Shown here: positions 33,732 to 64,000 of the stretch, piece by piece
Layout: the number at the start of each line of letters is the position of its first letter
How positions within the stretch are numbered: the first letter of the stretch is position 1
Assembly: GCF_014643635.1 (NCBI RefSeq)
Contig: NZ_BMJV01000003.1
Coordinates: 186,001-250,000 of the forward strand
DNA: 64,000 nucleotides
Reading direction: 5' to 3'
Source of the DNA: Salipiger pallidus
Lineage (GTDB): Bacteria; Pseudomonadota; Alphaproteobacteria; Rhodobacterales; Rhodobacteraceae
Position numbers and translations under genes: made by a program
The notes under the pieces: model-generated
What the model saw: only the letters and a program-made list of their open reading frames with translations
Databases searched by the model: none
Told to the model about the DNA's origin: nothing

Positions 33732-33787
33732 ATTTTCGTCCATGAAAGGGGGCTGGCCCGTCTTGACGCGGTCTCCAAGACCGTGAC

Positions 33788-33817
33788 GAAGCCGAAGCCG
33801 AAGCCGAAGCCGAAGCC
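33788..33817. repeat. Hexanucleotide tandem repeat (GAAGCC)5
   Basis: Five perfect copies of GAAGCC in the non-coding region upstream of the SOS operon. Confidence 0.9.
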
Positions 33818-34016
33818 GACGGAAGGGCAAGCCCCGCAACTGCGGGTTCCCGGGACGCGGCTCCACCCGAGATCAGCTTGGCCCGCAACCAACCATCCCC
33901 GAGAGCCGCTGGCGGGGCAGCCATTCTGGAGGCGTGTCATTTCCGTTATCAGTCAGTCCAGAAATCTGTCGGGCTCGGGGCAAGCTCGTCCAAAGTGAGG
34001 CAGACCAGGAGCGCGA

Positions 34017-49865: not shown

Positions 49866-49907
49866 GGGGCGGCCTCGCTGTGAGGCCGGCAAAGGCAGGC
49901 ATATCGG

Positions 49908-50008
49908 TCCCATCCCTTCGCCGGCATGATCCGGATCAGGTTCGAAGGGTCACCGCGCTGCTTGCGCCAGCGGTCTCTCAGCTTCTTGTCGAAACTCCCC
50001 TTGGTGGG
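49908..50008 (-). ncRNA. TPP (THI-box) riboswitch
   Basis: The minus strand carries the diagnostic elements in order: GGGGAG, then CTGAGA, then ACCCTTCGAACCTGATCCGG and CATGCCGGCGAAGGGA, matching the conserved TPP-binding core. It precedes tenA in the correct orientation. The expression platform seems to be the GGCCTC/GAGGCC hairpin near 49871-49887 that hides a GAGG sequence. Confidence 0.95.
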
Positions 50009-50115
50009 GCCTTCCTATCTGATGGAGCCGGTCCTGTCATCACACGGTTCGCCGGGACAGGCGGTGTACGTCCCATCGCAAAGCCCGGCCGCCGCGCGGT
50101 GGCGTTGCGGCACGA

Positions 50116-60336: not shown

Positions 60337-61089
60337 CTAGCGGGACGACGGCGATGCCGCGCCCCGGGCCGCCCGGGCCAGCCGGTCCATGAAAAGCCCC
60401 CGCGCGGCGGGCAGGGGGCGGTCCCGCAGGGCGTAGGCAAGCCGCTGCTCCATGAAATGCCCGGTGGTGCCAAGCGCGGTGAGGATGTCGGCATCCGTGG
60501 CCGGGCCTTCGCCCAGAAGCACCGGGGGCAGGGGCAGCAGCCTTGGCGCCCAGTCCCCGGCAGCCGAAGCGGACACCGCCCGCCCGGTGCGCGGCGAGAC
60601 ATAGGCCAGGTGGTCGTTCCCCCCGCTCACCGCGCAGGCTGACAGGTCGAGCCCGAAGCCCATCTCGTCCAGAAGTGCCATTTCCCAGCGCAGGTAGGCC
60701 AGCGGCCAGAGGTCGGGCTCGGCCAGCAGGTCCAGCAGCTGTTCGGTGCGGGTGTAAAGCGCGGGATGCGCCTCGCGCTCGGGCAGGCAGAAGGCCAGCA
60801 GCGCCACCACCGCGTTGAGCCCGGCCAGCGACAACCGGTCCGCCATGGCGATGGCCGCCCGCGAACGCTGCGGCTCCACGGTGAAGGCGCCCATGTGATC
60901 CTCGAGCCGCGCCCGCCACGCGAGGTCAAGCTGCGCCCCTGGCTGCAGGCTGGGCGCGATTTTTCGCGATGCCCCGCCACGCAGCACCCCGAGATGACGG
61001 CCATGCTCGGGGGTGAATACCTCCAGGATGGCCGAGCTTTCGCCATGCCTGCGGGAAGACAGAAGAATGCCGGTGTCGCGCCAGTCCAT
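60337..61089 (-). CDS. recO: DNA repair protein RecO
   Basis: A 250-residue RecO that loads RecA with RecR in the RecFOR pathway. An N-terminal OB-fold ([20 protein letters not shown] to TVEPQ near residue 72) is followed by a helical domain with [14 protein letters not shown] and a C-terminal region around [20 protein letters not shown]. Cysteines of a zinc motif are largely absent, as in many alphaproteobacterial RecO. The upstream 115 bp lead into the (CCTGA)94 array. In relatives recO follows era and DUF1491 directly; here 2.3 kb separates them. Confidence 0.94.
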
Positions 61090-61204
61090 GTGGGCAATGT
61101 CGTGATTTCCGGCGGCAAGGGCAAGCGGGTGCTGCCCTCTCCGGCTTGTGAAGTGCCGTCAGTCCCCGGTGGATTGACCGGACGGGGGAGGGCGTCAAGA
61201 TCTC

Positions 61205-61675
61205 CCTGACCTGACCTGACCTGACCTGACCTGACCTGACCTGACCTGACCTGACCTGACCTGACCTGACCTGACCTGACCTGACCTGACCTGACCTGAC
61301 CTGACCTGACCTGACCTGACCTGACCTGACCTGACCTGACCTGACCTGACCTGACCTGACCTGACCTGACCTGACCTGACCTGACCTGACCTGACCTGAC
61401 CTGACCTGACCTGACCTGACCTGACCTGACCTGACCTGACCTGACCTGACCTGACCTGACCTGACCTGACCTGACCTGACCTGACCTGACCTGACCTGAC
61501 CTGACCTGACCTGACCTGACCTGACCTGACCTGACCTGACCTGACCTGACCTGACCTGACCTGACCTGACCTGACCTGACCTGACCTGACCTGACCTGAC
61601 CTGACCTGACCTGACCTGACCTGACCTGACCTGACCTGACCTGACCTGACCTGACCTGACCTGACCTGACCTGAC
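61205..61675. repeat. Perfect tandem array of 94 CCTGA pentamers
   Basis: 470 bases of uninterrupted CCTGA (TCAGG on the minus strand), 94 perfect copies plus one base. No unit carries a point change. It lies between recO and a 300-bp non-coding stretch, in the upstream region of recO. Being perfect and homogeneous, it is presumably young or actively maintained by slippage. All three minus-strand frames through it lack stops and encode repeating SGQVR; all plus-strand frames meet TGA within five codons. Confidence 0.98.
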
Positions 61676-61975
61676 TTTGCACGCCATAGGTTCGGCCCTT
61701 GGTCGTTCGCCTGATGTAGCCGGGCCGGGCTAGCCGCTCGCCCCTATCTTGCCATCTGCCTCATGCCGTCCGATGGCTTCAACTCCAGCCCCCTGCACAG
61801 AATGCTTCGAGCTGTGCCCAAGCCGGGTTGCCCATTTTTCGGCGCGGTTTGGGGCCTTCTTTATCAAAGAGCTTTCGCCCGGTCGGTCCTCAGCCGATCC
61901 GATTGACCAGAGCGGCCCACATGGGCCTCAAACGGCCCAATTCGCCCATTGCGTTCCGCCGGCCCGGCCCAAAAC
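61676..61975. other. Non-coding stretch between the pentamer array and octamer repeats
   Basis: 300 bp. A plus-strand frame from 61749 runs through it but has no ribosome-binding site and merges with the octamer repeats, so I do not call it. It may contain the promoter of the first Pr6Pr gene. Confidence 0.5.
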
Positions 61976-62032
61976 TTCATCCGTTCATCCGTTCATCCGT
62001 TCATCCGTTCATCCGTTCATCCGTTCATCCGT
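61976..62032. repeat. Octamer tandem repeat (CCGTTCAT), about 7 copies
   Basis: Six perfect CCGTTCAT units (61981-62028) with a partial unit on each side, ending 15 bases before the ATG of the first Pr6Pr gene, in its leader or ribosome-binding region. Confidence 0.95.
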
Positions 62033-62047
62033 CCGTTGAAAGTCACC

Positions 62048-62683
62048 ATGTCTCCGACTCCCCGTCTCATCGCCCTGCTCGTCGCCCTGCTTGCCGCCAC
62101 CTCGGTCGGTGTGCAGCTGTGGCTCGGGCTGAGCCGCCGGCCCCTGCTGGACGAGGCATGGCGCATGGCGCGGTACTTCACCAACCTTACCAACGTGCTG
62201 GTGGCGCTGACCTTTCTGCGCATCGCGCTGGGATGGCGACCCTCGGCGTGGTGGAGCGCCGGGCTCACCCTATGGATCGTCATCGTCGGAGTGGTCTACC
62301 ACGCGCTGCTGTCGCGCGATCTGTCGGGGCTGCGCTGGTGGACCGATCTTGGCCAGCATAGCGCGGTGCCCGTGGCGGTGGTGCTGTGGTGGCTGGCCTT
62401 CGCGCCCAAGCACGGCCTTGGCCCGCGCCACGCGGTGCTGTGGTTGAGCTGGCCGCTGGTCTATGTCGCCTACGTGCTGGTGCGTGGCACGATGGACGGC
62501 CGTCACCCGTATTTCTTCGTCGATCCCGGGCGGCTAGGCTGGGACGGTGTGGCGCTCTGGTCGATGGGGCTTGGTGTCGGGTTCTGGCTGGCTGGGCTTG
62601 GCGTGGTGCTGCTGGCGCAACGTCTTGGCAGGTCGGCCCCGTCCATGAAACGCGATGATCCTGCAGGCCCCGAGGCCGGTTGA
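62048..62683 (+). CDS. Pr6Pr-type membrane protein, copy 1
   Basis: A 211-residue integral membrane protein with about six hydrophobic segments, resembling the Pr6Pr (FAR-17a/AIG1-like) family of unknown function. Conserved stretches include ARYFTNLTNVLVAL, LTLWIVIVGVVYHALL, LGQHSAVPVA, FAPKHGLG, HPYFFVDPGRLGWDG. The start at ATG 62048 gives a plausible N-terminal helix; octamer repeats end 15 bases earlier. It is 62 bp from a clear paralogue on the same strand, so the pair arose by duplication. Confidence 0.85.
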   Translation: MSPTPRLIALLVALLAATSVGVQLWLGLSRRPLLDEAWRMARYFTNLTNVLVALTFLRIALGWRPSAWWSAGLTLWIVIVGVVYHALLSRDLSGLRWWTDLGQHSAVPVAVVLWWLAFAPKHGLGPRHAVLWLSWPLVYVAYVLVRGTMDGRHPYFFVDPGRLGWDGVALWSMGLGVGFWLAGLGVVLLAQRLGRSAPSMKRDDPAGPEAG

Positions 62684-62744: not shown

Positions 62745-63344
62745 ATGTCAAAGCGTGCCCGTTTGTTTTCCGTCCTGATTGCCTGCGTCGCATGGGCGTC
62801 CCTTGTGGCCCAGTTCATCGCGACAGAACAGGAAAGCCTCGCGTTCGCGCCGCTTGGCACCGCGTGGGATCTGGCGCGCTATTTCACCCTCCTGACCAAC
62901 CTGCTGGTGGCGCTGAGCTTTGCCGTCATGACGCTGACCGACAGGATGCTCTCGCCGGCGTGGCTGGGCGGGCTGACGCTGTGGATCGGCATCGTGGGGG
63001 GTGTGTACTGGGCGTTGCTGGCGCAATCGCCGAAGGGGCTGGAGGCCTGGGCGAACCAGGGGCTGCATACGGCGGTGCCGCTTCTCACTGTGCTGTTCTG
63101 GATAAAGTGCGCACCCAAGCACGGGCTGCATTTCGGCACGGCCCTGGTGTGGATGCTATGGCCGCTGGCCTATTTCCTTTACGCCATTGCACGGGGGCAG
63201 GTGGACGGGGTGTATCCCTACTTCTTCACCGATCCCGCCAGCGTCGGCTGGGACGGGGTGGCACGCTGGTTCGCGATCCTCTGCGCCGCCTTCGTGGCGG
63301 CGGGCGGGGTGCAGGTGGGGATAGCACGGCTGATCCGGAGCTAG
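62745..63344 (+). CDS. Pr6Pr-type membrane protein, copy 2
   Basis: A 199-residue paralogue of the preceding protein, with the same order of motifs: ARYFTLLTNLLVALSF, LTLWIGIVGGVYWALL, LHTAVPLLTV, CAPKHGLHFG, YPYFFTDPASVGWDG. The membrane helices are better conserved than the loops, indicating divergence under a shared membrane role. Function is unknown. Starts at ATG 62745, 61 bases after copy 1; an octamer array follows its stop by 11 bases. Confidence 0.85.
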   Translation: MSKRARLFSVLIACVAWASLVAQFIATEQESLAFAPLGTAWDLARYFTLLTNLLVALSFAVMTLTDRMLSPAWLGGLTLWIGIVGGVYWALLAQSPKGLEAWANQGLHTAVPLLTVLFWIKCAPKHGLHFGTALVWMLWPLAYFLYAIARGQVDGVYPYFFTDPASVGWDGVARWFAILCAAFVAAGGVQVGIARLIRS

Positions 63345-63355
63345 TCGCGCCTGTC

Positions 63356-63392
63356 TGCGATCCTGCGATCCTGCGATCCTGCGATCCTGCGA
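63356..63392. repeat. Octamer tandem repeat (TCCTGCGA), 4 to 5 copies
   Basis: Four perfect TCCTGCGA units (63361-63392) with a partial unit before, 11 bases after the stop of the second Pr6Pr gene. Confidence 0.95.
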
Positions 63393-63446: not shown

Positions 63447-63776
63447 TCAGGCCAGCCCGTCCTCGTCTAGCAGGTGGCGGCCAGCGCGGTCCTCGACCTC
63501 GATCACCCACAGATCCGGATCGAAGCTGCGCTGTTTGGCGACAGACGCATCGACCTCGCGTTCGTCACCCGAGGCCAACTCGGTCCATTTGCGCTCGCCG
63601 GACATGAGGTCGAAGCCGCGGGTGAAGGCCACTGCACGGCCATCGAGCGTGGCAAGCTTCACAAGCACCGCGCCCGCGTGATCGTCGCCGTGGGCGACCA
63701 CGTAGGCGGGGATATTGGCAAAGCCCAGCCGCGCAAGATAGGCATCGACCCAGAACCGCGTCGTCAGGCGCGCCAT
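63447..63776 (-). CDS. DUF1491 protein
   Basis: A 109-residue protein beginning MARLTTRFWVDAYLARLGFA, matching the DUF1491 family of Rhodobacteraceae and relatives. It is cytosolic, with no motif suggesting an enzyme. In relatives it lies between era and recO, and here the era part is preserved (4-base gap to the end of era), while recO is displaced by 2.3 kb. Function unknown. Confidence 0.88.
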   Translation of the reverse strand: MARLTTRFWVDAYLARLGFANIPAYVVAHGDDHAGAVLVKLATLDGRAVAFTRGFDLMSGERKWTELASGDEREVDASVAKQRSFDPDLWVIEVEDRAGRHLLDEDGLA

Positions 63777-63780
63777 ACAG

Positions 63781-64000
63781 TCAGTTGCCGTCCTTGAAAT
63801 CGAGGCCCATCTCGGAATAGCGCTCGGCCTCTTCAAGCCAGTTCTCGCGCACCTTCACCTGCAGGAACAGGTGCACCCGGCGGCCGAGGAATTCCTCGAG
63901 CTCGGCGCGGGCGGCCTGGCCGATGGCCTTGACCGTCTCGCCCTTGTGGCCCAGCACGATGCCCTTGTGGCCGTCGCGCACCACGTAAACCACCTGGTCG
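63781..64000 (-). CDS. era: GTPase Era, C-terminal part
   Basis: The C-terminal KH domain of Era, cut by the window end. The RNA-binding signature IVLGHKGETVKAIGQAAR is visible, followed by VHLFLQVKVRENW and a usual C-terminus. Era binds the 3' end of 16S rRNA to guide 30S assembly. The GTPase domain lies beyond base 64000. The stop at 63781-63783 lies 4 bases from the DUF1491 gene on the same strand. Confidence 0.95.
   Translation of the reverse strand, partial: DQVVYVVRDGHKGIVLGHKGETVKAIGQAARAELEEFLGRRVHLFLQVKVRENWLEEAERYSEMGLDFKDGN

Follow-up and report, generated by a model that had tools for sequence, protein, structure and literature searches.

A perfect 94-copy CCTGA array between recO and a Pr6Pr gene of Salipiger pallidus, probably a slippage-grown microsatellite among many long-unit arrays

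A perfect tandem array of the pentanucleotide CCTGA lies beside the repair gene recO in a draft genome of Salipiger pallidus (Rhodobacterales, Rhodobacteraceae; assembly GCF_014643635.1). The stretch analyzed here, called the window, comprises 64,000 nucleotides of contig NZ_BMJV01000003.1 (forward-strand positions 186,001 to 250,000), and positions are those of the window unless stated otherwise. The array occupies 61205–61675, is assigned to no strand, and reads TCAGG on the recO-sense strand. An earlier sequence-only reading of the window had described 94 perfect CCTGA pentamers, which is borne out: all 471 bases match the repeated unit letter for letter (94.2 copies, zero variants), and Tandem Repeats Finder (TRF) reports 100% matches, 0% indels, and a score of 942. 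Both flanks consist of nonrepeat sequence. Five first-order Markov simulations of 800 kb each contained no array of at least 20 bp with a unit of 4–12 bp that is not a multiple of three, and the CCTGA array is therefore not a product of chance. With perfect head-to-tail short units and a length far above that of random models, it belongs to the known kind of long simple sequence repeats, in which its length is extreme. At its assembled length it would, to our knowledge, rank with the longest perfect pentanucleotide runs described from bacterial chromosomes. The 471 bp are uninterrupted, and the spacers of a clustered regularly interspaced short palindromic repeats (CRISPR) or similar spacer array are absent.

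The gene recO (60337–61089, minus strand) is identified by the Pfam domains RecO_N and RecO_C and by TIGR00613, and it is 75–84% identical to recO of all 19 other genomes of the genus used for comparison. Its ATG is 115 bp from the array. The earlier description of the array as upstream of recO is correct, but the 958-bp space that holds it is shared with a divergent Pr6Pr gene on the plus strand and does not belong to recO alone. A promoter-like element, CTTGCC - 18 nt - GACATT (61096–61125, minus strand), ends 6 nt before the recO ATG. CTTGC is found at −35 to −37 in 18 of the 19 relatives and here at −36 and again at −30; about 18 nt past it, just before the ATG, many relatives carry a GATA-like or GA-A-T-like hexamer where GACATT is found here. 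This position and conservation point to the element as the putative recO promoter, even if a generic sigma-70 consensus scan did not flag it (the promoter and terminator scan returned zero promoter-like sites and one terminator-like site, where 1.2 would be expected). Between the element and the array lie 79 bp. Since the element sits on the recO side of the array, the spacing within the element and the frame of recO stay the same at any copy number, whereas phase variation of recO would demand a shift in one of them.

The array is crossed by two open minus-strand frames that would encode VRSGQ repeats. A coding repeat was rejected, as these frames overlap recO in other frames; the frame of recO itself has no further upstream start codon before its stop. 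TCAGG is also the telomere unit of beetles, which is a coincidence given that both array flanks are bacterial. At Rfam gathering scores, the window contains just a thiamine pyrophosphate (TPP) riboswitch (49896–50011, minus strand) and a tRNA, neither of them at the array.

The locus differs from that of the relatives, in all 19 of which recO was identified. The sequence-only reading had suggested a search of relatives for TCAGG arrays; (CCTGA)7 occurs in none of the 19 genomes. Their recO loci contain no perfect array of at least 16 bp and three copies, except for an 18-bp hexamer triplet near one end in five of them. Within the 1.5 kb fetched upstream of recO, a Pr6Pr gene is found in 18 of 19 relatives (one a partial match). 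The space between the two genes, measured in 15 of 19, is 54–57 bp (nine genomes) or 193–286 bp (six genomes), compared to 958 bp here. The relatives resemble either the one or the other Pr6Pr type more closely, whereas both types stand in tandem in S. pallidus. The expansion can accordingly be called recent, as had been proposed, in the sense of recent relative to the genus: the units are perfect, (CCTGA)7 is missing from the relatives, and other arrays accompany it in the same genome.

Beyond the CCTGA array, intergenic DNA at 61676–61975 (no strand) has no significant match in the recO loci of the 19 relatives or in the first 400 kb sampled from this genome. It is followed by a second perfect array, (TTCATCCG)7.1 (61976–62032, no strand), that ends 15 bp before the Pr6Pr ATG and whose unit is present at three or more copies nowhere else in the genome. 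The frame before Pr6Pr is open through this array to a TTG, and an 8-bp change could in principle shift such a leader extension. The two Pr6Pr family membrane proteins (62048–62683 and 62745–63344, both plus strand, NF038065) are 47% identical to each other. A third perfect array, (CTGCGATC)4.8 (63355–63392, no strand), lies between convergent gene ends after the second copy. The genes that follow on the minus strand encode a DUF1491 protein (63447–63776, PF07372) and the C-terminal part of a KH-domain protein that runs off the window edge (63781–63999, PF07650), which from gene order and sequence we take to be Era. Elsewhere in the window, (CGAAGC)5.5 is located at 33787–33819, near the start of a minus-strand open reading frame (ORF).

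The CCTGA array is one of many in this genome. Sixty scattered 20-kb stretches (1.2 Mb) were scanned, the window being excluded because it was chosen by the finding, and compared with 0.8 Mb of sequence (40 stretches) taken from 13 of the 19 relatives. Perfect arrays of at least 20 bp and three copies with units of 4–12 bp number 15 in the own genome and three in the relatives; those with a unit that is not a multiple of three number nine (two of them adjacent) and zero. Ten perfect arrays reach at least 40 bp (49–137 bp) in S. pallidus, compared to none in the relatives. If arrays fell evenly, the probability that all ten land in the own stretches would be 0.6 to the tenth power, about 0.006. 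The ten arrays have ten different units (GCGGGAG, TCCGAACCC, CTGCGAGG, CAAAGAGC, ACCCGAAG, TGGGCATC, GGCTTGC, AGGCTCA, CGACAG, and GCTGAG), which fits separate origins better than a motif that moves or is bound by a protein. Other genera of the family, sampled over 0.61 Mb that include two stretches chosen for short CCTGA arrays (35 and 30 bp), yielded a single array of at least 40 bp, (TCAGGC)12.8 with 77 bp at a contig start (L281:1-77).

A second array of the TCAGG unit is also present in S. pallidus, a perfect (TCAGG)9 of 45 bp (C3:45645-45689; L009:2046-2090), flanked by the gene of an M17 aminopeptidase and by a small ORF without Pfam match. It is the one further site of the unit at five or more copies. 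Together with the absence of (CCTGA)7 from the relatives, this does not resemble iteron- or parS-like binding by a repeat protein. The protein-binding array that the sequence-only reading had considered is likewise disfavored, since a common repeat-binding protein is unlikely for ten other long arrays with ten different units.

The placement of the arrays was screened against ORFs of at least 60 amino acids with coding-like composition. None of the 12 arrays with a unit that is not a multiple of three (three in the window, nine outside) lies inside such an ORF. One overlaps an ORF end by four bases, and the TTCATCCG array falls in the possible TTG-started leader extension. Arrays with a multiple-of-three unit lie in coding-like ORFs in five of seven cases. 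Two perfect hexamer arrays, (CGACAG)15.3 and (GCTGAG)8.2 (L315:1337-1428 and 1650-1698), share one 500-amino acid open frame. The neighbors include genes for an M17 aminopeptidase, a FUSC-like protein, a redoxin, a nitroreductase, an M48 peptidase, a HlyIII-like protein, and a GNAT protein, as well as a FliL match below its cut-off; a Pfam scan left 2 of 10 neighboring proteins without a match. The settings are divergent, convergent, and tandem. This placement is as expected if frame-shifting arrays are purged from genes and tolerated elsewhere, and it is unlike the profile of surface-gene contingency loci.

With a probability of roughly two in three, the CCTGA array is a long-unit microsatellite that grew through strand slippage during replication or repair, perhaps aided by unequal recombination, and belongs to a lineage where many arrays of 5–9-bp units have grown. 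The process would start with a chance duplication of CCTGA, to which slipped strands then add whole units. Loops of 5 bp would mostly be beyond the reach of mismatch repair, which allows the change to be retained, and the array would lengthen between genes, where counter-selection is lacking. Mismatch repair is described in PMC4060949 as effective on loops of 1–3 bp and as sharply less efficient on longer ones. The purity of the array would reflect its youth as well as whole-unit gain and loss, and the array itself is probably neutral. At a mutation rate near 2 × 10⁻¹⁰ per base per generation, the lack of any change over 471 bases would fit an age of up to some 3 × 10⁷ generations; this is a loose bound, and whole-unit turnover would keep an array pure for longer. 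The company of arrays across the genome, which was absent from the original finding, is more interesting than the CCTGA array alone.

Several points weigh against this interpretation. We infer slippage, neutrality, and instability from the arrays of a single strain of the species. The stretches behind the array counts make up 27% of this genome, and 13 of the 19 relatives are covered, each in part. Open frames of at least 100 amino acids, without coding-like composition, cross or abut nearly all arrays, and the label “intergenic” therefore rests on the composition screen; in a recheck without the composition filter, several of these frames were antisense to better gene calls. The local clustering of three arrays within 2.2 kb at the Pr6Pr genes is left without explanation, and the four repair families searched (see below) are all present, yielding no cause among them. 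Finally, the CCTGA array is 3.4 times as long as the next longest array sampled in the genome (137 bp) and 3.3 times as long as the longest (CCTGA)n, 28.4 copies, among the matches listed in 126 public stretches. Simple slippage would not predict a length this far outside the rest.

The outlying length may instead originate from the assembly. The genome is a draft of 23 contigs and 4.44 Mb, and the sizes of contigs C1 to C9, which descend from 1159 to 148 kb, suggest a short-read assembly without proving one. As 471 bp exceed ordinary short reads, the exact copy number is a statement of the assembler; the figure of 94 copies depends on the draft and its exact length may be wrong. It is quite possible, if short of probable, that the real array has roughly 5–30 copies and that the assembler or a gap-filling program extended it to 94. 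The remaining arrays sampled in the genome, all of 137 bp or less, would fit such an overstatement, and tandem repeats are named as a known source of assembly error in PMC6868369. This explanation concerns the length only and is compatible with growth by slippage. The existence of such arrays does not depend on the CCTGA array, as it is documented by (TCAGG)9 with 45 bp and the ten others of 49–137 bp. Several public (CCTGA)n runs reach contig ends, and long arrays elsewhere may therefore be under-assembled.

A different explanation starts from the unit. The G-rich strand, with GG every five bases, could stack into two-layer quadruplexes that stall replication and thereby favor TCAGG. Two TCAGG arrays in one genome agree with this proposal, and so does the occurrence of (CCTGA)6 in at least 119 public genome stretches, many of them from Streptomyces, in a scan that had no control unit (these 119 and seven viral stretches make up the 126 examined for the longest run). 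Apart from this proposal, a record of Methylobacillus rhizosphaerae shows two (TCAGG)n arrays, one of 19 and one of 14.6 copies, with 15 bp between them (L083:3695-3877). When the reversed unit was used as a control, however, the proposal lost ground: among 294 other genomes of the family, (CCTGA)5 is present in two and the reversed unit also in two. One of the latter two has 15 overlapping reversed-unit matches, corresponding to ∼19 copies if they form one array. In 83 kb of a family genome with reversed-unit matches (G281), no array was seen, but this sample is too small to weigh. In a sample of the class, the CCTGA unit was found in 1 and the control in 0 of 288 other genomes, counts that are too small to weigh on the matter. 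GG or CC occurs in every unit of nine of the ten other long arrays, as it does in about four-fifths of random units of 65% GC, which is neutral, and the long CGACAG array without GG or CC speaks against stacking. The CCTGA unit is not clearly favored in the family, a special motif is unsupported by the family and class counts, and a quadruplex origin is unlikely.

More doubtful still is a contingency or tuning element that acts on recO or on the divergent Pr6Pr gene, whether by distance, by DNA shape, or with the help of a repeat-binding protein. Arrays in divergent upstream regions can tune transcription in other bacteria, and the CCTGA array is placed in such a region; furthermore, the TTCATCCG array ends 15 bp ahead of the Pr6Pr start codon, at a spot that is occupied by different sequence in relatives of that Pr6Pr type. 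The sequence-only reading had suggested that the CCTGA array could alter recO transcription or act as a contingency element. This is not supported: the promoter-like element is intact, lies 79 bp nearer to recO than the array, and has the same offset as in 18 of the 19 relatives, and (CCTGA)7 is missing from all 19. The further arrays adjoin unrelated genes in all three orientations or sit between convergent genes. A contingency element for recO was therefore rejected as the best interpretation, and tuning in the wider sense is improbable.

Least credible of all is an expansion caused by lineage-wide loss of ordinary mismatch repair. It could account for the presence of long arrays here and their absence from the stretches sampled in 13 relatives, but MutS and MutL domains in stop-free frames and the lack of an excess of 1–3-bp repeats speak against it. 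Domains of MutS, MutL, RecJ, and exonuclease VII occur in all 20 genomes of the genus, this one included, and in this genome no stops interrupt them; loss of any of the four was rejected, point defects still being possible. Runs of mono-, di-, and trinucleotide units number 7, 0, and 5 in 800 kb of the own genome and 7, 3, and 8 in 800 kb from the relatives. An ordinary mutator state is therefore disfavored.

As a tentative extension of growth by slippage, the species may have a heritable, genome-wide instability of long-unit repeats (5–9 bp) that is independent of mismatch repair and acts via changed replication or single-strand processing, with the 94-copy array as its extreme.

If the arrays and their absence from the relatives hold, S. 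pallidus offers a natural comparison, one species with and 13 without them in the sampled parts. Such a comparison would address, separately from mismatch repair, what prevents long-unit microsatellites from building up in most bacterial genomes. For annotation, the locus is a warning that a striking repeat beside a repair gene is not to be taken for a regulator; the assembled length at this site also calls for verification. Among the papers listed by a literature search, none dealt with arrays of this type in the group, which does not prove that none has been published.

Known systems resemble the CCTGA array in some traits and differ from it in others. The CTCTT pentamer repeats of neisserial opa are contingency loci inside the reading frame of surface genes. 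They share the trait of a pentanucleotide array near a gene start, whereas the CCTGA array lies outside both the recO frame and the promoter-like element. Another parallel is found among the prokaryotic long simple sequence repeats of Mrazek and co-workers (PMC4060949), who describe tandem repeats of 6–11 bp as extremely over-represented between the genes of Methanococcus voltae, M. aeolicus, and Natrialba magadii. Proliferation in single lineages is therefore already known. Perfect arrays of long units are the common feature; the differences to those cases are an alphaproteobacterial host of the Rhodobacterales, sampled genus relatives without arrays of at least 40 bp, a longest array of 471 bp, and a 5-bp unit. 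In the GGGAATC heptamers of Xanthomonas and Nostoc, as presented in PMC4692102, one unit is reused at many, comparatively conserved places, while in S. pallidus each long array sampled carries a unit of its own, and the relatives are without such arrays in the parts sampled. Both systems nevertheless consist of short units that are mostly intergenic, in bacteria that are not classic phase-varying pathogens.
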